Shown piece by piece: positions 2,092-24,770 of a stretch of DNA of 34,732 bases. The stretch spans positions 1 through 34,732 of the forward strand of contig CANQJQ010000006.1 of the NCBI GenBank assembly GCA_947624265.1, written 5' to 3'. Source of the DNA: Candidatus Gastranaerophilales bacterium (GTDB taxonomy: Bacteria; Cyanobacteriota; Vampirovibrionia; Gastranaerophilales; Gastranaerophilaceae). Within the stretch, counting starts at the first letter, position 1. Every line of letters starts with the position of its first letter. The notes beneath the pieces were generated by a model that was not told the DNA's origin, did no database searches, and saw only the letters and a program-made list of their open reading frames with translations. A program made the translations under genes and the position numbers.

Positions 2092-3975
2092 ATGAATAAA
2101 AAACAAAAGAAAATGTTAATAAGGATAATTGTTGCATTTGTGCTTCTTATCGGATTTCATTTTATAAAGATGCAGGGTGTAATAAGATTTTTGGCGTATA
2201 TGCTTCCTTATTTCATAATAGGTTATGATATTTTAAAGAAAGCCATCAAAGGAATTATTAATCTTAAACCTTTTGATGAATCACTTCTTATGGCGGTTGC
2301 AACGCTTGGAGCTATAATTCTTGCTCTTTATAATGAAGCTCACGGGCATAACGGCGATTACGTTGAAGCAATAGCTGTAATGCTTTTTTATCAGGTAGGG
2401 GAGTTTTTTCAAAGTCTTGCGGTCTCTAAAAGCCGAAAAAATATATCGGAATTGATGGATATAAGGCCTGATTACGCAAATATTGAAATAAACGGCAAAT
2501 ATGAAAAGGTTGACCCTAATGAGGTTAAAATAGGTGATATAATAATAGTAACTGCAGGAGAAAAAGTTCCTTTAGACGGTATTGTTATTGAAGGCAATTC
2601 TTCTTTAAATACGGTTGCGCTTACAGGAGAAAGTGTTCCTCGTACTATAGGGGTTGGTGATGAAATTATATCGGGTTCTGTCAATTTAAACGGACTTTTA
2701 AAAGTAAGGGTTACAAAATCTTTTGGAGACTCAACAGTATCAAAAATATTAGAGCTTGTGGAAAATGCAAGTTCAAGAAAATCAAAATCCGAAGATTTTA
2801 TAGCCAAATTTGCAAGAGTTTATACTCCGTTTGTTGTTGTGTCCGCAATATTGCTTGCTTTATTACCGCCTTTAATCCGAATTTTATTTTTAGATTTACC
2901 TGCACTTTGGAATTTATGGATATATAGAGCTTTAATCTTTTTGGTTATAAGCTGTCCTTGTGCTTTAGTAGTAAGTATTCCGTTATCGTTCTTCGCCGGA
3001 ATCGGTGGTGCGTCTAAAGCGGGGATTTTAATTAAGGGCTCAAATTATTTAGAAACGCTTTCAAACGTTAAAACTGTTGTTTTTGATAAAACGGGAACTT
3101 TAACCAAAGGGGTGTTTGAAGTTAATGCTATTCATCACAGTAAAATTGAAGAAGATAAGTTACTTGAGTACGCAGCTTTGGCTGAAAGTGCAAGTTCACA
3201 TCCCATCGCCATAAGCCTTAAAAAGGCATACGGTAAAGAAATTGATTTATCACGAGTAAAAGATATTCAGGAAATAAGCGGTAACGGGATAATAGCAAAA
3301 ATAGATGACTTTGAAATTGTAGCCGGAAATGAAAAAATAATGGCAAAGTTCGGGATTGAACCTATCAGATGTCATTCTACGGGAACAATTATTCACATAG
3401 CCATAAATAACAACTACATGGGACATATTGTTATATCTGATGTTATTAAACCCGAATCTTTTAAGGCTATTGAAAACTTAAAAAAACTGGGAATTAAAAA
3501 ATTAATTATTTTAACGGGTGATTTAAGAAAAACAGCTAAAGAAGTTGCCGATAAACTTAAAATCAATGAATTTTATTCGGAATTGCTTCCTAATGACAAG
3601 CTCAATAAAGTAGAAGAAATAATTGACGGAAAAAATACCGTTGCATTTGTCGGGGATGGTATAAATGATGCGCCTGTTTTAACAAGAGCAGATGTCGGTA
3701 TTGCAATGGGGGCAATGGGTTCAGATGCGGCTATTGAAGCGGCGGATGTTGTTCTAATGGATGATAACCCTTTAAAGATAGCCGACGCAATAAATATTTC
3801 AAAAAAATGCTTAAGAATAGTCGGACAAAACATCTGTTTTGCACTTGGGATTAAATTTATATGTCTAGTTTTAGGGGCTATTGGTATTGCAAATATGTGG
3901 CTTGCTGTTTTTGCGGATGTCGGAGTTATGATAATATGTATACTTAATGCTCTTAGGACACTTTTTATTAAATAA
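2092..3975 (+). CDS. P1B-type heavy-metal-transporting ATPase, Zn/Cd/Pb type
   Basis: The 627-residue protein has the full set of P1B features: actuator-domain LTGES, membrane metal site CPC (288-290, in SCPCALVVS), phosphorylated Asp332 in DKTGTLTKG, the SSHPIA nucleotide-binding motif, and GDGINDAP near 521-528. The last helices read MWLAVFADVGV, with the conserved Asp of ZntA/CadA-like Zn(II)/Cd(II) exporters rather than the Asn/Tyr/Met pattern of copper pumps. There is no N-terminal HMA domain; that function seems to be carried by the separate gene at 1856. It would export divalent soft metals from the cytoplasm using ATP. No good SD precedes 2092; coupling to the upstream gene or a start at 2113 is possible. 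Confidence 0.9.
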   Translation: MNKKQKKMLIRIIVAFVLLIGFHFIKMQGVIRFLAYMLPYFIIGYDILKKAIKGIINLKPFDESLLMAVATLGAIILALYNEAHGHNGDYVEAIAVMLFYQVGEFFQSLAVSKSRKNISELMDIRPDYANIEINGKYEKVDPNEVKIGDIIIVTAGEKVPLDGIVIEGNSSLNTVALTGESVPRTIGVGDEIISGSVNLNGLLKVRVTKSFGDSTVSKILELVENASSRKSKSEDFIAKFARVYTPFVVVSAILLALLPPLIRILFLDLPALWNLWIYRALIFLVISCPCALVVSIPLSFFAGIGGASKAGILIKGSNYLETLSNVKTVVFDKTGTLTKGVFEVNAIHHSKIEEDKLLEYAALAESASSHPIAISLKKAYGKEIDLSRVKDIQEISGNGIIAKIDDFEIVAGNEKIMAKFGIEPIRCHSTGTIIHIAINNNYMGHIVISDVIKPESFKAIENLKKLGIKKLIILTGDLRKTAKEVADKLKINEFYSELLPNDKLNKVEEIIDGKNTVAFVGDGINDAPVLTRADVGIAMGAMGSDAAIEAADVVLMDDNPLKIADAINISKKCLRIVGQNICFALGIKFICLVLGAIGIANMWLAVFADVGVMIICILNALRTLFIK

Positions 3976-4003
3976 AAAAATCTTTATAGATTTCTCTATA
4001 AAG
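3969..4003 (-). terminator. Intrinsic terminator, best read on the minus strand (ruvB side)
   Basis: A perfect 9-bp stem CTTTATAGA / TCTATAAAG (3982-3990 and 3995-4003) with a 4-nt loop. On the minus strand it is followed by a run of T with one A; on the plus strand no T run follows. It lies between convergent genes and could stop ruvB transcripts before they enter the ATPase gene. Confidence 0.5.
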
Positions 4004-4025
4004 GCATTAAATTGTTGGAAATTTA

Positions 4026-4044
4026 ACATTATTATAAATAATGT
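4026..4044. repeat. Short perfect inverted repeat between convergent genes
   Basis: ACATTATT-ATA-AATAATGT has 8-bp perfect arms and a 3-nt centre. A second short stem (TAGCC-ACAT-GGCTA, 4101-4114) followed by TATTTT lies nearby and could act as a weak terminator for the plus-strand efflux operon. The rest of 4004-4150 holds no gene I can see. Confidence 0.3.
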
Positions 4045-4150
4045 ATAGTTCAAGTATTTGGAATGAGTTTATGATAAATCAATATTATCCAAATGTCTAT
4101 TAGCCACATGGCTATATTTTAAACGTTTTGAGAACTTTAAGAGCACAAAA

Positions 4151-5209
4151 TTAAAATAATGATTGCTGTATATCTATATTAGACAAGTTAAAACACTTGC
4201 AGGCATAGGGACTTAGTTTTCTTCCTCTTGGCGTTCTTTGGATAAACCCTTTTTGAACAAGGAAGGGTTCATATACATCTTCAATGGTTTTAACATCTTC
4301 GCCAAGCGCAGTAGCCAAAGTTTCTATACCGACGGGACCACCGTTATATTTTTCTGCAATAATTTTAATTAAAGCCCTATCCGTATTATCAAGCCCGAAT
4401 TTATCAATCTGTAAAATATCAAGAGCTTTATCCGCTGTTTTTTCATCAATAATTCCGTTGGATTTAACAATCGCGTAATCTCTGACTCTTTTAACAAGTC
4501 GGTTCGCAATTCTTGGTGTACCTCTTGAACGTTTGGCAATGGCGCTGGCTCCCTTTTCATCAATTTTAATATCTAAAATCCCCGCCGTGCGTTGTATAAC
4601 TTTAGTAAGTTCTTCATCTGTATAAAATTCAAGTCGGTGAATGATACCAAACCTGTCTCTTAATGGACCTGACAAGGCTCCTGCTTTTGTTGTTGCACCT
4701 ATTAACGTAAACTTAGGAATAGGGATTCTTATTGATTTAAGAGTCTGCGCTTTTCCTGTCGTCATATCAAGATAAAAATCTTCCATCGCCGGATATAATA
4801 TTTCTTCAGATATTTTATTCAGCCTGTGTATTTCATCTATAAATAATATATCGCCTGCTTTTAAAGACATAAGGATACCTATAATATCTCTCGGACGCTC
4901 TAAAGAAGGTGCCGAAGTAATTTTAATGTTGGAATTCATTTCTGTTGCTATAACCGTTGCAAGAGTCGTTTTTCCCAGTCCGGGTGGTCCGTAAAATAAT
5001 ATGTGATCTAATGGAAGTTCCCTTTTCTTTGAAGCTTCAATAGATATTTTTAAAGTTGATTTTAAAGCACTTTGCCCTACATATTCATCAAAATGTTTTG
5101 GACGTATATTAGATTCAAAAGACATATCATAGGAGGTTTCTTCCCCCGTTGTGTCTTCATTTTTATTTTTTTCAAATTTGATATTTTCGTCGTCGGATAT
5201 AATTGCCAA
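4151..5209 (-). CDS. ruvB: Holliday junction branch-migration helicase RuvB
   Basis: The 352-residue protein is a clear RuvB. It has Walker A GPPGLGKT (74-81), Walker B with IDEIH (124-128), the sensor/arginine-finger region with [18 protein letters not shown], sensor 2 in [17 protein letters not shown], and the C-terminal winged helix ending in [15 protein letters not shown]. RuvB hexamers drive DNA through RuvA-bound Holliday junctions in recombinational repair. The start codon is TTG at 5209, supported by AGGGG 8 nt upstream. An N-terminal tail of about 30 acidic and charged residues precedes the conserved core. ruvA and ruvC are not in the window. A small HTH gene lies 54 bp upstream on the same strand. 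Confidence 0.97.
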
Positions 5210-5263
5210 GTTTTTTACCCCTAGGTTATTTTATATCATATCATAATATTATATGAATTTTCT

Positions 5264-5621: not shown

Positions 5622-6992
5622 ATGACTAATAAACTTGAAGTAGAACCGTATATATCAAACAGCAGTTATTTTTTTGAACAAAAAAATTCACGCTGTTATA
5701 TAGTGAATGAGAAAAAGCATTGTGAATTAATTTTAGATGGTGTGTTTGCTGATTTATGGTATATAATTTTGAAGACTCAAAATTATAATGAGGTAAAAGA
5801 GTATGCTAAATCAAGAAATATAGCTGATAATCTTGATGAATTTATAGAAGAATTAAAATTTACCGGAATTATTAAAAATGAATATGATATTCACGATATA
5901 AAAGAAAAAAAAGTCTACATTCCTAGTGAACTTGATGATAATATTTACAAAAAAGAACATTCAGAAAAATTCGAGTGGTTCTATAAACATCATCTTATAA
6001 ATTTTTTTACTTTTGAATTATCTTATAAATGTAATCTTAATTGTAAGCATTGTTATAACGATAAAGACATGATGGAAAAAAGTATTGATTTTGAAACTGC
6101 AAAATCAATTATCGATGATGCAATTAAAATTGGTGCTAAAATATTTTCTTTTACTAATGGGGAGTGTACAATACATCCTGACTTATTAAAAATATTGAAA
6201 TATCTTCGTGAGAAAAGAAAATCATTTCAGTTAATTACAAATGGGCAGAAATTAAGTGAAGATAAAGATTTTTTTGAAGAAATTGTTAGATTATATCCAA
6301 ATTTGATAAGAATTAGCTTATATAGTATGGACACTAAAATTCACGATAATATAACAGGAGTTAAAGGTTCACAAGAAAAAACAATTGATGCAATTAAAAA
6401 ATTACTGTCACGAAATGTTCCTGTTTGTATTAACTATTTTCAATTAAGTTTAAATAAAGATTGTATTAATGATGTACGAAAATTTAGTGAAGAAGTCGGG
6501 GCTGTATTTAGTCCGGGGGCACATTTTATTTATAATAAGAAAAATAATAATATTGATACGGCTGTTACGGATGAGCAAATATATAGTTCTTATATTGACA
6601 AAAATTCGTCATTATATTGTTTATTAGAACAGAAAAACCATTGTTTTACTGATAAAGAAGCACCTCTTTGCGGTGCGGTCATTAATCTTGCCGTTAATCC
6701 GTTTTTAGATGTAGTTCCTTGCGCGGCTTTACGTTATAAATTAGGAAATTTAAAAGAAAAAACTTTGGAAAATATATTTAATAACGAATATAAAAAATTT
6801 GTGGAAATATTTAAAACAAAAAATTTAAAAGATTGTATAAATTGTGAATTTTTTGAACATTGTTTTTATCTTCCCTGCATGGGGATGTATGAAAACGGAT
6901 TTTTAAAAAAATCTGATATATGCTGCAAGTTTACCAAAATTAGAATGGAAGTATTAAAGGAGCAAGGTAAACTTTTAAACTGTCAAAAATAG
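5622..6992 (+). CDS. Radical SAM/SPASM peptide maturase with N-terminal PqqD-like recognition domain
   Basis: The 456-residue enzyme has three parts. Residues about 20-88 look like a PqqD-like RiPP recognition element (GVFADLWYIILKTQNYNEVKEY, then DEFIEELKFTGII). The radical SAM core carries Cys137, Cys141 and Cys144 (CNLNCKHC) and a GGE-like TNGE segment. The C-terminal SPASM region has Cys350, Cys367, Cys405, Cys408, Cys414, Cys419, Cys434 and Cys435, enough for two auxiliary iron-sulfur clusters. Such enzymes make thioether, C-C or other crosslinks or epimerise residues in precursor peptides. The gene lies 41 bp before a short Cys-rich peptide gene with a strong SD, the likely substrate. 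Which residues it modifies cannot be told from sequence. Confidence 0.88.
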   Translation: MTNKLEVEPYISNSSYFFEQKNSRCYIVNEKKHCELILDGVFADLWYIILKTQNYNEVKEYAKSRNIADNLDEFIEELKFTGIIKNEYDIHDIKEKKVYIPSELDDNIYKKEHSEKFEWFYKHHLINFFTFELSYKCNLNCKHCYNDKDMMEKSIDFETAKSIIDDAIKIGAKIFSFTNGECTIHPDLLKILKYLREKRKSFQLITNGQKLSEDKDFFEEIVRLYPNLIRISLYSMDTKIHDNITGVKGSQEKTIDAIKKLLSRNVPVCINYFQLSLNKDCINDVRKFSEEVGAVFSPGAHFIYNKKNNNIDTAVTDEQIYSSYIDKNSSLYCLLEQKNHCFTDKEAPLCGAVINLAVNPFLDVVPCAALRYKLGNLKEKTLENIFNNEYKKFVEIFKTKNLKDCINCEFFEHCFYLPCMGMYENGFLKKSDICCKFTKIRMEVLKEQGKLLNCQK

Positions 6993-7033
6993 ATTAGAAA
7001 AGTATCAATAAAAGAAACTGAAAGGAAGTAGTA

Positions 7034-7168
7034 ATGAAAGAAAAAACAAAAAATTTAAAAGTGAACAAACTAAAATTTATAAAAGAATCTCGTATTAAAC
7101 ATGAAATAATAGCAGGAGGTTGTACCAGCTGTTCAGGTTGTTGGAAGGGAACTCAGCATAACTGTTAA
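7034..7168 (+). CDS. RiPP precursor peptide with Gly-Gly step and Cys-rich core
   Basis: This short gene encodes 44 residues: a Lys-rich leader (MKEKTKNLKVNKLKF...HEIIA), a Gly28-Gly29 pair, and a 15-residue tail CTSCSGCWKGTQHNC with Cys30, Cys33, Cys36 and Cys44. The SD AGGAAG lies 5 nt before the ATG. It lies between a radical SAM/SPASM enzyme with a recognition domain and a YcaO protein, 41 bp and 38 bp from each. Gly-Gly followed by a Cys/Ser/Thr-rich core is the usual layout of precursors cut by C39-type proteases and of azole-forming (YcaO) substrates. The CxxCxxC spacing with Ser, Thr and Gly between is typical of substrates for either enzyme type. I do not recognise the family. Confidence 0.85.
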   Translation: MKEKTKNLKVNKLKFIKESRIKHEIIAGGCTSCSGCWKGTQHNC

Positions 7169-7206
7169 TTTGCCCTTTTTCTTTATATTTTCTATGTTGA
7201 GGAAGT

Positions 7207-8937
7207 ATGTTATACAGTATATTGAAAGATGAAAAACCAAAGAATACGGTTGCAAAAATTAAAAAAATTATTTCGGAGTTAAAAATAGAATTAAAAGAGG
7301 AATATTTTATTGATAATTCTTCGTCGGCTCCTGTATCCGTTCGTTTAACATTCAAAAATAATTCTAATATAGGAACAAATGGAAAAGGCACGTGTATAGA
7401 AAATGCTCTTGCCTCTGCTTATGCTGAATTTATGGAAAGATTGCAAAATTTAGTCTTAATTCCCGACAACGCTGATTATATACAAGAAGTTATGTCAGAC
7501 ATATTCCAAACAAACGAAGATATAACTTGGGAAGATGTTAAGTTAAATGAATATTTTGCAGATAAACTTCAAACACGAAAAATTTTCAGTAAAAAAAATT
7601 TATTATTAGCCCCTTTTTATAGTGTAAAAAATGGGGTTAATGTAGATTTACCCATTCAGTTAATTGGTAAAATTGTCGGAACTAATGGGATGGCGGCCGG
7701 TAATACTTTAGAAGAAGCAATTGTACAGGGTCTATCTGAAATTTGTGAAAGATATGCAATTAAAGAAATTTTTAAAAATAAAATTTCTATACCTGATATC
7801 CCTCAAGAACTATATATGCAGTATGATAATATAAAAAAAATCATTAATTATTATAAGGATAACGGATTTAAAATTTATATAAAAGATGCCTCTTTAAACG
7901 GTAAAGTTCCTGTTATTTGTACTGTATTTGAAGATATTATAAATAACGTTTATATTCTTTCTATAGGTTCTCATCCAAGTTTCCCAATCTCAATAGAAAG
8001 AACTTTAACTGAATTTACTCAAGGAATAATATTATCTGAACGCAGAAAATCTAAGGTTGTTCCTTATCCGTATTTTTCTAATGAAAGATTAAAACATACT
8101 TCATTAGGAGAATTATGTAATTCTTTATTTTTAAGTAAAAATGCATATGCAAAATCAGCTATAATTAAAAGTATTTTTTTAAATGATAAACCGAAATATA
8201 ATGTTTCTCAAAAAGATTGGATTTCAGCAAATAAAACTTATACAAATAAAGAATTATTAAAATATTTAACTGATAAAGTTTTAAAAATTGCTGATGACAT
8301 TTATATAAGAAATGTTTCCTTTTTGTCTTTCCCTTCTGTATATATATTTGTACCAAAATTGTCAGATGTTGTTTATTATACAGAAAAGAATCTGTCAAAA
8401 GAGTCATTGGATATTCTGTGGGAAAACTACAACAAAAATCAAAATAAACAAGATTATAATATTGAAAGTTTATTAAAACTTTCGGAGATATATACTTATA
8501 CAGAATGGTCTGAATCCAGAAAAATTTTTAATGTGCCGTTTGAATATGTTGCTTTACTATGCTCCATTGTTTTAAAAGATGCAAAAAGGGTGAAGAAATA
8601 TATTAAACTTATTTTTGCGCAAAACGAAGTATTTCAATATTATACAGACAATCAAATAGAAGTTTTAAATATTATTAAAGAGTATTTTTCCTGTCTTGAG
8701 AAAAAAGATAAGTTAACATCTAAATCGGAAAATTTAAAGAAAAAATACAAAAAATGTAATATTGATTATGCATTTGAGGTTATTAATAAGTTAACTTTTG
8801 AATTGATATTGGAAATTGTTATAAAAAAAACAAAAGTTAAAACCTTCAATAACAAAAAACTTATATCCCTGTTAAAAAAAGAATATAAGAAACATCCTCT
8901 AAAGCAAACGGATTTAAAAAATCTATTTTGTTTTTGA
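7207..8937 (+). CDS. YcaO-domain protein, probable peptide backbone-modifying enzyme
   Basis: The first ~400 of 576 residues form a YcaO domain. Diagnostic parts are GTNGKG (56-61) with the helix SAYAEFMERL (70-79; the SxxxExxER nucleotide-binding signature), GTNGMAAGNTLEEAIVQGLSEICERYA around 160-190, and IERTLTEFTQG. YcaO enzymes use ATP to activate peptide amides, giving azolines, thioamides or macroamidines. The product lacks the C-terminal proline-rich PxPxP end seen in many azoline-forming YcaO proteins, ending NLFCF instead, and no E1-like or dehydrogenase partner is nearby. The C-terminal ~170 residues are Lys-rich, helical and unassigned. GAGGAAG lies just before the ATG. The adjacent Cys-rich peptide is the obvious substrate. 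Confidence 0.88.
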   Translation: MLYSILKDEKPKNTVAKIKKIISELKIELKEEYFIDNSSSAPVSVRLTFKNNSNIGTNGKGTCIENALASAYAEFMERLQNLVLIPDNADYIQEVMSDIFQTNEDITWEDVKLNEYFADKLQTRKIFSKKNLLLAPFYSVKNGVNVDLPIQLIGKIVGTNGMAAGNTLEEAIVQGLSEICERYAIKEIFKNKISIPDIPQELYMQYDNIKKIINYYKDNGFKIYIKDASLNGKVPVICTVFEDIINNVYILSIGSHPSFPISIERTLTEFTQGIILSERRKSKVVPYPYFSNERLKHTSLGELCNSLFLSKNAYAKSAIIKSIFLNDKPKYNVSQKDWISANKTYTNKELLKYLTDKVLKIADDIYIRNVSFLSFPSVYIFVPKLSDVVYYTEKNLSKESLDILWENYNKNQNKQDYNIESLLKLSEIYTYTEWSESRKIFNVPFEYVALLCSIVLKDAKRVKKYIKLIFAQNEVFQYYTDNQIEVLNIIKEYFSCLEKKDKLTSKSENLKKKYKKCNIDYAFEVINKLTFELILEIVIKKTKVKTFNNKKLISLLKKEYKKHPLKQTDLKNLFCF

Positions 8938-8968
8938 ATAACCTTTTTAATAATTTGAGCGCAATACA

Positions 8969-9904
8969 ATGATAATACCCAGTGATTATAATAGTTTAAA
9001 ATATAATATAAAATATCTTTTTCTTAAATATCTTCCGGTTTATTTTTATCCTTTTGTATTGAGTTATTATTATGAACAGAAATTTAAAAGAAAACTAAAT
9101 TTAAAAAATCCGCAAAGATTATCGGAAAAAATACTTTGGTCTGTTTTATATGATAATAATCCTATGAAAACCGTTTTGGCAGATAAATTGAAGGCAAAAG
9201 AATATGTTTCTGCGATATTACCGGATTTAAAAGCTGCAAAAGTTTTTCAAATTGCTTTTTCTTTCAATGATATAAACATTAATAAAGCTCCTGATACATT
9301 TGTTATTAAAACAAATCATGCTTGGAGAACTCATATATTGGTTAAAGATAAAAATAAAATTACAAAAGAAGATTATAATTTTTATAAAAAATTTTACAAA
9401 AAAGTTTTAAATATTAACTATGCTTATTGGGGTACTCCGGAACTTCAGTATGAAAACATAGAGCCTAAAGTATATTTAGAAGAATATTTATATGCGCAGC
9501 CAAATAGAGAAGGGGACTCTTTTATAAAGGAATATGAGGTTTTTTGTTTTAACGGAAAACCTGAGTTTATAAATTATTCAAAATCATTAAACGATACGGA
9601 AGAACCGCTAGACAGACCTTGTAAAGAAGGACGGTGTTTTGATACTCATTGGGCAGTAGCTGATTATAATATAATGAATAATGACGACATTAAAGAACCG
9701 GATACAATTAATAAAGATTTAATTATATATTATGCGGAAATACTTTCAACAGGGTTTGATTTCGTAAGGATTGATTTTTTTGAGATAGATAATGAATTAT
9801 ACTTTGGAGAATTTACATTTTCTCCTTATGCAGGTTTTATCCAATTTCTTCCGGATGAATATGATTTATTTTTCGGGCAAAAATTAAAAATCAGAAAAGA
9901 TTAA
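8969..9904 (+). CDS. TupA-like ATP-grasp ligase
   Basis: The 311-residue protein matches the TupA-like ATP-grasp family from end to end: RLSEKILWSVLYDNNPMKTVLADKLKAKEYV near the start, FVIKTNHAW (nucleotide-binding Lys), YENIEPKVYLEEYL, the catalytic-half FCFNGKPEFINYS, and the metal-binding RIDFFE...YFGEFTFSPYAGF end. Family members are ATP-dependent carboxylate-amine ligases, best known from teichuronopeptide synthesis, and many occur in cell-surface polysaccharide loci. Here it follows the YcaO gene by 31 bp in the same orientation, so it may add an amino acid or other amine to the modified peptide. No polysaccharide genes adjoin it. A role unrelated to the peptide cannot be ruled out. Confidence 0.8.
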   Translation: MIIPSDYNSLKYNIKYLFLKYLPVYFYPFVLSYYYEQKFKRKLNLKNPQRLSEKILWSVLYDNNPMKTVLADKLKAKEYVSAILPDLKAAKVFQIAFSFNDININKAPDTFVIKTNHAWRTHILVKDKNKITKEDYNFYKKFYKKVLNINYAYWGTPELQYENIEPKVYLEEYLYAQPNREGDSFIKEYEVFCFNGKPEFINYSKSLNDTEEPLDRPCKEGRCFDTHWAVADYNIMNNDDIKEPDTINKDLIIYYAEILSTGFDFVRIDFFEIDNELYFGEFTFSPYAGFIQFLPDEYDLFFGQKLKIRKD

Positions 9905-20341: not shown

Positions 20342-22006
20342 CTATATATTTTTATTTATATCAATTTTATACTTAATATTTTTTATCGTTTCAAGAAAAT
20401 CAAGCCACCTTTTTTGTTTTGTTTCAACGGATAAATTGGTATCTTCAAATTCTGCCGAATAAGAAAAATCATTTTCTTTTGTTATTTTAATTCCGTATTT
20501 TTCACAATTTCTATAAACATAACTGTTTTTCATTAAAGAAAATGGTCCTGGGCTTATAGTAACATATTGCATTACTGATTTTAGAAATTCAATTGTTTCA
20601 TTAATTTCTTCAGCGGTTTCAGTTGGAAAATTAACTATTATACCTGCAAGATTTGATATTCCGATTTCATGGCAATTTTTTAAGATATTAGGAACATATT
20701 CTATATTTATGCCTTTATTCATTTTATCCAGAACGGACTGGCTGCCTGATTCCAAACCCCAATATATAGCTCTTAAACCGGATTTATATAATTTAGTGAT
20801 TAATTCTTTTGTAAATTCTTTTTCAAATCTTGCGAAAATTGTGTAATATATATTTAAATTTTCTTTCATTATTTCATCAGCTAATTTATCAAGATATGCA
20901 GGTGATAATGCATCATCTTGAAATTGTATCCAACCATGTTGAGGATATTCATTTATGATTTCTTTTATGTCTTTAACAACTTTTGCAGGAGTTTTTATTT
21001 TATAGTTATTATATTTCTCACCAAGACTGCAAAAAGTGCATTTACCCCAATAGCATCCTTTGGAATTTATTATATATATGTCGGGTCTTTTAAATAAATA
21101 TTCATTAAAATTAATTCCGTCGAAAGACATTTTAGCCACATTATTTATATTATTAATTATTTTTGGTTCGGTACTGATTATTTCATTTCTTTTATTTTTG
21201 TACATAATTCCGTCAACATTTTTGCACGGAGTTCTACTTGCTATAGATTTCAACATTTGTATGATAGATTCTTCTCCGTCGCCAAACATTATAGAATCGC
21301 AAAATTTGTTTAAAATTTCAGGATTATTTAAAATATCTTTTTGTTTGATAAAATTACCGCCTATTGTTATATGACTTTTTGTATTATTTTTTAAAAGTCT
21401 TGATAGGGTTAAAGCCGGTATTAATGTGCCTATAAATGGTATTGTTATTGCTATTAAATCATATTTCTCTTTTGTGATTTCTTTTTTAATTATTTCTTCA
21501 AAAAATTCTATAAATATATTTTTTTCTTTTTCTTGAGTAATTGCTTCTATATATTGATAATCAGAAGTATAATCCAAAAAACTGTTTTCAAAATTATTTA
21601 ACCGGTCAATTTTAAAATTTGGGTATTGTAAAGATATAAAATTTAAGGCAGAATTAATTAATTCTTCAGCTTTATTAAATTCTTCATTTCCGTACAATGC
21701 TTCTCTAAATATACAAATTGAGTTTTCTATATTATTTATAAGATTTTCAGCTTCTTCTTTGTTGTAATTTATATTTTTTTTATCATACTGATTTCTCGTT
21801 TTTTCAATATATTCTTTAGATAATATTTTATTAAAAAATTTAATATTTAAATCTAAATTTTTTGCTTTAAATCCTTCTCCTGCATATGTTTTAATCTGCC
21901 CTAAAAGAATAGGCATTGAAATATATATAGTTTTTGGATCTAGCAAAGGAGGTGTAATTAATAAACAATTAATTTTTTTAGCCTTTTTTAATATATTAAA
22001 AAACAT
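20342..22006 (-). CDS. B12-binding-type radical SAM enzyme (CX4CX2C)
   Basis: The 554-residue protein has an N-terminal region of ~300 residues that includes a Rossmann-like cobalamin-binding-type segment (YDLIAITIPFIGTLIPALTLSRLLK, then HITIGGNFI and SIMFGDGEESI). The radical SAM core follows with Cys318, Cys323 and Cys326 (KGCYWGKCTFCSLG), a CX4CX2C spacing rather than CX3CX2C. Further core motifs are YWGLESGSQSVLDKMNKGI and ISNLAGIIVNFPTET. Such enzymes often methylate or rearrange unactivated carbons; some mature peptides, others lipids or cofactors. It has a strong SD (AAGGAGG). An 18-nt-scale AT-rich promoter region and then a dispersed repeat separate it from the radical SAM gene upstream on the same strand. 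Confidence 0.85.
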   Translation of the reverse strand: MFFNILKKAKKINCLLITPPLLDPKTIYISMPILLGQIKTYAGEGFKAKNLDLNIKFFNKILSKEYIEKTRNQYDKKNINYNKEEAENLINNIENSICIFREALYGNEEFNKAEELINSALNFISLQYPNFKIDRLNNFENSFLDYTSDYQYIEAITQEKEKNIFIEFFEEIIKKEITKEKYDLIAITIPFIGTLIPALTLSRLLKNNTKSHITIGGNFIKQKDILNNPEILNKFCDSIMFGDGEESIIQMLKSIASRTPCKNVDGIMYKNKRNEIISTEPKIINNINNVAKMSFDGINFNEYLFKRPDIYIINSKGCYWGKCTFCSLGEKYNNYKIKTPAKVVKDIKEIINEYPQHGWIQFQDDALSPAYLDKLADEIMKENLNIYYTIFARFEKEFTKELITKLYKSGLRAIYWGLESGSQSVLDKMNKGINIEYVPNILKNCHEIGISNLAGIIVNFPTETAEEINETIEFLKSVMQYVTISPGPFSLMKNSYVYRNCEKYGIKITKENDFSYSAEFEDTNLSVETKQKRWLDFLETIKNIKYKIDINKNI

Positions 22007-22071
22007 AAATAAAAAACCTCCTTAAGTTTAAACTATAGTATAAATATATCATAATTAAAATTTATGAGGAT

Positions 22072-22090
22072 GTTCGGAAAAAGACCGAAC
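22072..22090. repeat. Small hairpin next to repeat copy 2
   Basis: GTTCGG-AAAAAGA-CCGAAC is a 6-bp stem with a 7-nt loop. No T run follows on either strand, so it is not a clear terminator; it may belong to the repeat element beside it. Confidence 0.4.
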
Positions 22091-22095
22091 TAAAT

Positions 22096-22209
22096 TGTCC
22101 GAGAAAATTTCGCTATGAGGAACGTGTGCGAAATTTTTGAATGGCAACTTTAAAAGGTGAGCACTTATACAGCGACGATGAGTCGGCGGCAAAGTGCGAC
22201 ACCAGATTA
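22096..22209 (-). repeat. Dispersed intergenic repeat, copy 2 (inverted relative to copy 1)
   Basis: Read on the minus strand this matches 1091-1259 in order: TCTGGTGTCGCA, ACTCATCG, GTGCTCACCTTTTA, TTGCCA, AAAATTTCGC, GTTCCTCAT and GCGAAATTTTCTCGGACA. The 10-bp arms AAAATTTCGC (22104-22113) and GCGAAATTTT (22128-22137) are perfect, with a 14-nt loop in place of the long one in copy 1. It lies between two radical SAM genes. Confidence 0.8.
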
Positions 22210-22236
22210 GATATATCCCTAATGAACTTAAGATAT

Positions 22237-23319
22237 TTAATATTTAGGATATAAATCACAGCATAGATTACATGGGGTAAATACTTTGTATGATTTTAAT
22301 TTTTTTCTAAAATCTTTAAATTTATCATTATTTATAATTTCACTTAATTTTTGTTCTTTTAAATTCCCCATACGTATTGGAAGACAAGGGTATACATCCC
22401 CTTGGGGATTTATAAATATGTCTGAAAATGGAAATTTACAAGGTTTATATAATTCAAACGGTTTTTTTTGTGCATTTTCAAAAACATATTTAATAGAGTC
22501 TATTGAAGCATGCGGTTTGAATTTAGGAGCCCAGCGAATAAGGGTATAACCGTTTTTTGAAAGACTTTCAAGTTCCTTATATACTTCTTCAAATTTTTCA
22601 AAATCAAAATATTTATTTATAGGGTATTCTTTAGTTAAATAATTATTGTCAAAATTGTCTGAAAGTTTTGGGTTCTGCCTTATATTGGTTGTCCTTAAAA
22701 AAGAAAATGTTATGAAATTAATTTGATTATCATTACATAATTTATACAATTTGGGTAAATCTTCAAGATTTTCATTTAATATAACGGTTTTAATTTCTGT
22801 TAAAGGTAATTTTTTTTGTTTTTTATGGCTGTTTATATATAGAATACTGCTTAATGTCTTATCGTATAAACCTTCTAAACCTCTGAATTTATCGTGATTT
22901 TCTTTAATTCCGTCTATAGAAACACTAAATAATAACATCTTAATTTTTAAAAGTTCATCCAAATATTCGTTGGTAAGCATAGTTCCGTTTGTATAAAGAT
23001 TTATTTTCCCCATAACTCGGTTTGATGCATATTTTAATAAATTTAAAATATCGTCTCTTATAAATATTTCCCCTCCTAAAAAAGAAATAAAAGCATATTT
23101 GGGGATTTGATCTATAATTTTGTACCAATCCGTTTGATTAAGTTCCTCCAATTTTCTGTTATGCCCCAAATAACAAAAAGGACATGATAGGTTACATCTG
23201 TATGTTATTTCCAAAATATATCTTAACGGTGGAAGAATATGTCCGTTTCTATTTTTATATGAAAAATCAGAGTACATATTTCTTGCCAAATCGAATAAAA
23301 AGGAATTATCAATTTTCAT
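22237..23319 (-). CDS. Radical SAM protein with SPASM/twitch-type C-terminus
   Basis: The 360-residue protein has the radical SAM cluster motif at Cys42, Cys46 and Cys49 (EITYRCNLSCPFCYLG), followed by FISFLGGEIFIRDD (SAM-binding GGE) and FSVSIDGIKENHDKFRG. The C-terminal region has cysteines in KPCKFPFSDIFINPQGDVYPCLPIRMGNL and TPCNLCCDLYP, typical of a SPASM or shortened twitch domain that holds one or more extra clusters. Relatives modify peptides, proteins or small molecules. It is 5 bp downstream of the B12-type radical SAM gene on the same strand, so the two are translated from one mRNA and probably act in one pathway. No precursor peptide gene was found beside it. Confidence 0.85.
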   Translation of the reverse strand: MKIDNSFLFDLARNMYSDFSYKNRNGHILPPLRYILEITYRCNLSCPFCYLGHNRKLEELNQTDWYKIIDQIPKYAFISFLGGEIFIRDDILNLLKYASNRVMGKINLYTNGTMLTNEYLDELLKIKMLLFSVSIDGIKENHDKFRGLEGLYDKTLSSILYINSHKKQKKLPLTEIKTVILNENLEDLPKLYKLCNDNQINFITFSFLRTTNIRQNPKLSDNFDNNYLTKEYPINKYFDFEKFEEVYKELESLSKNGYTLIRWAPKFKPHASIDSIKYVFENAQKKPFELYKPCKFPFSDIFINPQGDVYPCLPIRMGNLKEQKLSEIINNDKFKDFRKKLKSYKVFTPCNLCCDLYPKY

Positions 23320-23324
23320 CTGTC

Positions 23325-24770
23325 TTATCCCAGCAATGTATTTTTTATTAATCTTATGCCATATTTAATATAATTTAAAAGTATTTTGGGTGTTTTAATG
23401 ATTTGTATTAATTTGGGAATAATATAATTTGGTCTTATGTAGTATTGAAATACAATTTTTCTTCTGTATTTTTCAACATAAGAAGGGGTTAAATCGGTAT
23501 CAAAAGTATTTATACAATTAAAATGATTTTTTCCGTATATTTCATTATGAATTTTATTTTCTTTGTTAAGCATATTATATAATTCCGTTCCGACAAACGG
23601 GGTGGCAATATGAACCTCAATAAAATCGGTATTATTTTTGAAAATAGCTTTTTTCGTTTTTTCTATATCTTCTTTTGTTTCCCAAGGGAATCCGATAATA
23701 TAGAAACCAACGGTTTGAAGTCCTGCTTTTTTTGCCATACGTATGGTATTATAATTTTTTTCAACCGTTGTATTTTTTTTGATATTTTTTAATGTTTTAT
23801 CGGTACCGGATTCTAATCCGAAAGCAACAAGAAAACAACCTGCTTTTTTCATACAGTTTAGCATTTCTTCGTCAACTGTATCAACTCTTGAATTTGCGAC
23901 CCAGCGTATTTTTCCGTTCAGATGGGATTCTGATATTTTTTTGCATAATTCAACAGTCCATTGTTTATTAATTGTAAATGTATCAGCTTTAAAGAAAAAG
24001 TTTCTGATGTTATGTTTAAAATAACATTCTTCCATTTCTTCAATAATATTTTGTGCTGATCTGAATCTGACTTTTTTACCTGAAATCACCGGCGATAAGC
24101 AGTATATACAAGAAGAAGGGCATCCTCTTGATGTGGAAATTGTTGCCAAAGGTTCGCCCGTATCAGGTATAGTATACAATTTATTATTCATCGCATACCT
24201 ATCAGGGAACGGAAGAGAATCTAAATTATCTTCAAAGTTTGTATTTGGAGTAATTATAAATTTATTATTATCTTTATATACAATACCTTGTATATTAGGA
24301 ATTTCCTTTTTATTGTTGAAGTGGGCATCTAATAAATCCCCGATTATAAATTCTTCTTCGCCTCCAATCATATAATCTATATTATTTAAATCAGCAATAT
24401 TAAAAATGTCTTGAGGGCAATTATAAAAAACAGCTCCTTTTAAGATAAATACAATATCAGGATAAATTTTTTTTATGTTATTTATAATTTTTATATCATC
24501 AAACATTGTTGCATTTGTTGTACTTAAAAATATTACATCAGGTAAAAAATTTTTAATATCCGTATATAAATTATTAATGTTTAATTTTTCACTCTGATAA
24601 TCTTTTAAAAAGGTAGAATATCCCCTATTTTTTAATATAGAAGAAGCATAACCCAAATCGTTACATGCTCTGGCTGAGTTAACTGCTGATTTATTAATAT
24701 TTAATTGACATCTATCTTCCCCTCGTTGATATATATCTCCCGGAGGATATATTAACATTATTTTTTTCAT
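23325..24770 (-). CDS. B12-binding radical SAM enzyme
   Basis: The 481-residue protein has an N-terminal cobalamin-binding-type Rossmann domain (MKKIMLIYPPGDIYQRG, PDVIFLSTTNATMFDDIKIINNIK, IDYMIGGEEEFIIGDLL) without the DxHxxG base-off His motif. The radical SAM core has Cys217, Cys221 and Cys224 (TSRGCPSSCIYCLSP), with VAFGLESGTDKTLKNIKKNTT and GFYIIGFPWETKEDI later. The layout is that of the large B12 radical SAM group (HpnJ-, BchE-like) whose members methylate or cyclise lipids, pigments and antibiotics. It opens the operon that includes the SPASM protein. No SD is visible; an extended -10 box lies exactly 6 nt before the ATG, which points to a leaderless mRNA. Confidence 0.87.
   Translation of the reverse strand: MKKIMLIYPPGDIYQRGEDRCQLNINKSAVNSARACNDLGYASSILKNRGYSTFLKDYQSEKLNINNLYTDIKNFLPDVIFLSTTNATMFDDIKIINNIKKIYPDIVFILKGAVFYNCPQDIFNIADLNNIDYMIGGEEEFIIGDLLDAHFNNKKEIPNIQGIVYKDNNKFIITPNTNFEDNLDSLPFPDRYAMNNKLYTIPDTGEPLATISTSRGCPSSCIYCLSPVISGKKVRFRSAQNIIEEMEECYFKHNIRNFFFKADTFTINKQWTVELCKKISESHLNGKIRWVANSRVDTVDEEMLNCMKKAGCFLVAFGLESGTDKTLKNIKKNTTVEKNYNTIRMAKKAGLQTVGFYIIGFPWETKEDIEKTKKAIFKNNTDFIEVHIATPFVGTELYNMLNKENKIHNEIYGKNHFNCINTFDTDLTPSYVEKYRRKIVFQYYIRPNYIIPKLIQIIKTPKILLNYIKYGIRLIKNTLLG

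Follow-up and report, generated by a model that had tools for sequence, protein, structure and literature searches.

The four tandem genes at positions 5622–9904 of the window, the 34,732-nucleotide stretch of Candidatus Gastranaerophilales DNA analysed here, very probably form a RiPP biosynthetic locus, and the three enzymes that they encode likely all act on the fourth product, a 44-residue peptide. The reading that best explains the locus, to which we assign a probability of about 0.55, is an operon for a peptide that would be crosslinked by a radical SAM enzyme (rSAM), thioamidated by a YcaO protein and ligated at its C terminus by a TupA-type ATP-grasp enzyme. The gene set and its recurrence, the protein folds, the conservation of active site residues and a pairing of charge between leader and RRE were all established by computation. 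The core of the family comprises the rSAM, a short precursor and TupA; YcaO probably joined it through a single recruitment, in one sub-branch.

The four-gene locus and its relatives

The features of the locus are as follows.

5622..6992, + strand: RRE-radical SAM/SPASM maturase, 456 aa (PF04055/PF13186, A3 alignment, AlphaFold2, Foldseek)
5622..5891, + strand: predicted RRE-like leader-binding domain, rSAM residues 1–90, net charge −6 (bbb-aaa model)
7034..7168, + strand: candidate precursor peptide MKEKTKNLKVNKLKFIKESRIKHEIIAGGCTSCSGCWKGTQHNC, 44 aa (ORF, position, similarity to peptides of other loci)
7207..8937, + strand: YcaO of E. coli YcaO-like architecture with C-terminal extension, 576 aa, pI 9.1 (PF02624)
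8969..9904, + strand: TupA-type ATP-grasp ligase, 311 aa (PF14305, model, Foldseek, clade)

All of the open reading frames claimed in the sequence-only reading are present, in tandem and on the + strand, with intergenic gaps of 41, 38 and 31 bp in gene order (31–41 bp had been claimed), and the enzyme families that it had assigned, i.e. radical SAM, SPASM, YcaO and ATPgrasp_TupA, all score above their Pfam cut-offs. The set is flanked by housekeeping genes, a RuvB-like gene upstream and a gene for a GatA-like amidase downstream; no transporter/exporter or protease gene is linked to the locus, and a promoter scan of it gave scores no better than those of shuffled sequence. The source genome (1.65 Mb, 120 contigs) is 85% complete, with 2.3% contamination. 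Elsewhere in the window (20342–24770, − strand) lies a tandem of three radical SAM genes, two of B12 type and one SPASM; the first is similar, at a score below the TIGR03975 cut-off, to C-methyltransferases of RiPP pathways, and no precursor is evident there.

Two genomes between them have three loci at which all four families occur together, in differing order and strand. The second locus, in the same genome, is on contig C91 (TupA, 2740–3648; rSAM, 3901–5067; a 51-residue peptide, 5060–5215; YcaO, from 5219 to the contig end). In the third (L034), in the congeneric genome G001, YcaO occupies the strand opposite to that of a degenerate rSAM without CX3CX2C, a 56-residue peptide, an rSAM and TupA. 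Three co-occurrences with rearranged order exclude chance as their cause, and they lend substance to the earlier proposals of a RiPP pathway and of likely joint action by the four genes. The YcaOs of the three loci form their own clade (support 0.994), suggesting a single recruitment; in the rSAM tree the window enzyme is positioned at low support (0.651), and the tree does not settle whether the three rSAMs form a group. At the second locus (L003, 3684–3901) the rSAM gene has no in-frame start, an ATG being present in another frame upstream of a six-C run, for which sequencing error, decay and phase variation cannot be told apart as causes. At L034 (5429–6643, − strand) the RRE-bearing radical SAM paralogue that has lost both CX3CX2C and SPASM is directly upstream of the precursor, and is possibly a scaffold or a decaying copy.

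Searching with the rSAM gave 55 matching stretches in 23 of 147 relatives (E up to 1e-15), and 52 homologous RRE-rSAM genes were scored, TupA being counted if encoded no more than 2.2 kb away on the same strand. By this measure TupA accompanies 36 of the 45 rSAM genes that are not of type B (types are described below), and 27 of the 30 such genes with at least 1.5 kb of flank on both sides; all five RRE-rSAM loci of the source genome have TupA close by. YcaO, by contrast, accompanies the rSAM at only three loci among the 52 genes. The four-gene set as a conserved unit is therefore rejected: what had been proposed as a class defined by exactly these four genes holds in the genome neighbourhoods for rSAM, precursor and TupA, but not for YcaO. 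Beyond rSAM and TupA, no further gene family recurs across the rSAM loci in a manner pointing to an exporter or protease. The close relatives found in an alignment scan of named records with the rSAM are Candidatus Gastranaerophilales from the animal gut, and the viral contigs searched gave one weak match, to the rSAM only.

Precursor types and probable leader recognition

A short peptide adjoins the rSAM in most loci, with a conserved leader and a hypervariable core. Type A precursors have an acidic leader ('LSIDEINELFSDIIEFPDD'), a hypervariable core and the gene order TupA–precursor–rSAM. Type B precursors have the leader 'MLKISRIARHT..', 2–3 Cys and no TupA, and are also present beside homologous rSAMs in one Clostridiales genome and one proteobacterial genome (L170, L171). 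Type C precursors have a basic leader ('KLYIKKRVK') and a Cys-rich core, mostly in the order precursor–rSAM–TupA. Type B loci common to Gastranaerophilales and a Clostridiales MAG (L125, 3160–4264; L249, 6139–7260; L170, 4989–5986) combine a 33-residue peptide, a 299–310-residue protein and the RRE-rSAM, the protein having the motif LVKGGGWNY (L125, L249) or VKGGGWNYGG (L170, where it has no Pfam match).

The window precursor gene is preceded by a Shine-Dalgarno-like GGAAG and sits between two enzyme genes. Its product has a basic leader (about residues 1–27, the boundary being predicted) followed by the Cys-rich core AGGCTSCSGCWKGTQHNC, in which Cys (four residues), Ser and Thr are abundant beside Gly, W-K is present, and Asp and Glu are absent. 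Peptides similar in position and sequence are present at L034, L138, L150, L152, L156 and L158, and the window peptide is assigned to type C from its location, its charge and its pairwise similarity. Its mean alignment score against type C peptides of other genomes beats 2000 of 2000 shuffles and its best score is topped by only 7 of 2000; a profile-HMM test against the same peptides is not significant (526 of 5000 shuffles as high), and the indication of homology from sequence alone is weak. No NCBIfam model exists for any of ten precursors tested. It could be argued, from the profile-HMM result and from the Cys content of small ORFs near the rSAM, which is not significantly above background (p 0.12), that the 44-residue ORF is not a real gene. 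The Shine-Dalgarno-like site, the location between enzyme genes, the similar peptides in the equivalent place in other genomes with their significant mean score, and the near-identical type B peptides in two genera make this most improbable.

The leader is basic at the window locus and acidic at most other loci. In type A, the leader charge ranges from −3 to −13 and that of the RRE (computed over rSAM residues 1–92) from −3 to +5 (mean +0.2), whereas in types B and C the leader ranges from +2 to +7 and the RRE from −4 to −8 (mean −6.5); the two groups do not overlap (Mann-Whitney p 2e-6). Over 32 rSAM genes the net charges of leader and RRE are anticorrelated (Spearman −0.74), a statistic that is confounded by phylogeny in that it reflects two clades, not 32 independent events. 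Outside the RRE, too, the rSAMs of type A differ in charge from those of types B/C (p 5e-4). As judged from these sequence-derived charges, the pairing supports the adjacent peptide as the probable rSAM substrate, and at the window locus the basic leader would dock on the acidic RRE.

The enzymes and their predicted chemistry

The rSAM scores 75.3 bits for radical SAM (PF04055) and 28.2 bits for SPASM (PF13186). In a 22-sequence alignment (A3) its SAM-cluster cysteines are C137, C141 and C144, and those of the auxiliary clusters include C350, C367, C405, C408, C414, C419 and C435. The AlphaFold2 model (pLDDT 85.5) has an N-terminal domain of three strands then three helices (residues 11–80, pLDDT mostly 84–92), and the nearest solved structures (Foldseek) are RiPP maturases of the SuiB, SkfB and CteB type; model and folds alike bear out the earlier claim that the enzyme has its own recognition domain. 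The maturases for streptide (SuiB), ranthipeptide (CteB) and sactipeptides (SkfB, AlbA) likewise combine RRE, radical SAM and SPASM with a short precursor gene alongside. Unlike them, the window rSAM has a TupA ligase and YcaO as partners, and identity with SuiB/CteB/SkfB-type maturases is only 16–18% in structural alignments. The cut-offs of the curated maturase families are missed, with 71.9 of 850 bits for AlbA and 60.7 of 625 bits for StsB.

The TupA protein scores 100.2 bits for PF14305 (ATPgrasp_TupA; cut-off 25), and its model has a pLDDT of 87.5. Its fold matches are weak (Foldseek, TM about 0.35–0.46) and are to ArgX/LysX, RimK and Ddl, all of which couple amino acids to carboxylates. 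It forms a clade with the type C TupAs (support 1.0).

The YcaO protein scores 156 bits for PF02624, above the Pfam cut-off, and aligns with E. coli YcaO along 520 residues, the C-terminal region included, at 23% identity. By alignment, the YcaOs of all three loci keep all of the ATP-site residues checked: K9, E75, E78, R79, N187, E191, Q195, E199, E202, R203, R286 and E290 (E. coli numbering). The sequence ends KNLFCF. The source genome has two YcaO genes and, at 85% completeness, no TfuA gene was found in it; named genomes gave no match when scanned with this YcaO as the single query. E. coli YcaO thioamidates uL16 without TfuA, and non-acidic relatives of it occur in RiPP contexts (PMC13063428). 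It is similar to the window YcaO in length, domain order, ATP-site residues and lack of TfuA; the window enzyme differs in its basic pI, its linked peptide gene, its sub-cut-off score for NF040716 (189.7 bits against 700) and its low identity, given which its reaction may also differ. Thioamitide-type TfuA-YcaO clusters also bring together YcaO and radical SAM enzymes, in some cases with stand-alone PqqD, but the window locus has no TfuA, an RRE fused to the rSAM, and a TupA ligase (PMC8120280).

The following pathway may be envisaged. Once the leader is docked, the rSAM would crosslink the Cys-rich core, most likely via Cys thioethers; YcaO, driven by ATP, would activate at least one backbone amide, replacement of O by S (a thioamide) being most likely, without TfuA; and TupA would ligate to a carboxylate, most likely that of the peptide C terminus, either an amino acid or, in closing a ring, an amine of the peptide itself. 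The order of steps is presumed, as are the substrates of YcaO and TupA, removal of the leader by an unlinked protease, and export. The combination of radical crosslink, YcaO-made backbone change and ligase cap, as first proposed, is plausible.

Two alternatives would detach an enzyme from the peptide. One is that the YcaO is a housekeeping enzyme of uL16 thioamidation with the RiPP genes as mere neighbours, as might be thought from the E. coli activity and from the many congeneric YcaO relatives that are free-standing between nrdG and gltX. However, pI discriminates uL16-type YcaOs, the E. coli enzyme being acidic (pI 4.4; PMC13063428), and the pI of 9.1 disfavours this role; together with the NF040716 score far under the cut-off, and the linkage of YcaO, as its own clade, to the rSAM and peptide genes of three distinct loci, it leaves only a slight chance of such a role. 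The other is that TupA acts on a cell-surface glycan and is only a neighbour of the peptide genes. Its namesake, of the same Pfam family, works in teichuronopeptide synthesis; the genus is rich in TupA paralogues (as many as 15 scored matches in one genome), many of them away from rSAM genes; and a GT8 glycosyltransferase is present at some YcaO-TupA loci. Yet TupA is found in 27 of 30 rSAM contexts, in type A the precursor gene begins only a few bases from the TupA stop, either after it or overlapping it, the type C TupAs form a clade, and the partners of the window TupA are an RRE-rSAM and a peptide, whereas those of the teichuronopeptide TupA are glycan genes, so that a glycan role is quite unlikely. 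A segment with TupA, GT8 glycosyltransferase and radical SAM genes occurs twice at L041 (1–2311 and 10028–13031), with identical gene lengths and starts and a truncated YcaO copy, reflecting a recent duplication or an assembly artefact.

With all three enzymes considered likely to act on the peptide, there are alternatives as to what they make. A Cys thioether, suggested by the four Cys of the window core, has about an even chance of being the rSAM product; every type B and C core has 2–4 Cys, and the KGDGW-type crosslink motif is absent from the window core. A C–C or C–O link, or epimerization, is a serious if tentative possibility, because the closest rSAM fold, SuiB, is a Lys-Trp C–C crosslinker, the window core has its W-K, and Cys is absent from some type A cores; since some type A cores have 0 or 1 Cys, thioether formation cannot be a family-wide rule. 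For YcaO, a backbone thioamide is on balance the probable product, by analogy with the E. coli enzyme. Azolines or an amidine made from core Cys, Ser or Thr appear unlikely: such residues next to Gly are the usual azoline substrates, and the ATP site does not reveal the YcaO reaction type, but the locus has no E1-like/Ocin-ThiF partner gene, the YcaO has no PxPxP C terminus, and its architecture is that of a thioamide-forming enzyme (PMC13063428).

C-terminal ligation by TupA has, on fold analogy, a little under an even chance. The window core offers no Asp or Glu, so the C terminus would be the natural acyl donor and a C-terminal cap is favoured over a side-chain graspetide ring. Graspetides and other ATP-grasp RiPPs, like the window locus, combine an ATP-grasp enzyme with a precursor, sometimes with SPASM enzymes, but the window core lacks their Asp/Glu donors; in the graspetide survey, ATP-grasp branch 6 associates with YcaO-TfuA and TupA is nowhere mentioned (PMC8939145). 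Graspetide chemistry is hence disfavoured in the window core; most type A cores have at least one Asp or Glu, and it is thus not disfavoured in all of them.

Relation to known RiPPs and further YcaO loci

The individual kinds of enzyme are known; as far as could be tested, their combination and the family are new. In the open-licence papers that were searched, TupA, ATP-grasp and radical SAM never occur in one paper, and the searches gave no paper on RiPPs of Melainabacteria/Gastranaerophilales. A tentative proposal, which we consider rather less than probable, is that a RiPP class exists in which an RRE-rSAM is paired with a ligase of TupA type, the ligase lengthening or capping the peptide, and in which the hypervariable cores have diversified inside a single gut lineage. 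In a sub-branch, an E. coli-type YcaO would add thioamides independently of TfuA, so that the products would have crosslink, thioamide and ligase-made terminus. If true, this would tie TupA ligases as a family to the maturation of RiPPs and provide a peptide substrate for an E. coli-type YcaO, so bearing on how YcaOs that lack TfuA receive their sulfur. It would also bring to light a diversified family of peptides in the Gastranaerophilales, relatives of cyanobacteria that live uncultured in the animal gut and whose metabolites are little known.

Several other YcaO loci were observed. Stand-alone YcaO genes beside nrdG and/or gltX (L036–L040, L043, L044, L047) occur in many genomes of the genus, and their products mostly have a basic pI, so that by the published criterion a role on uL16 is improbable. 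L247 (6775–15043, − strand) has four stand-alone YcaO genes, a direct tandem of three plus a fourth one gene away, with an ABC transporter on one side of them and recA/dnaK-like genes on the other. At L046 (6084–9203) and L049 (6390–9827), YcaO is accompanied by an M50 protease gene and acidic candidate peptides of 60–69 residues, with tandem B12-type radical SAM genes as well at L046.
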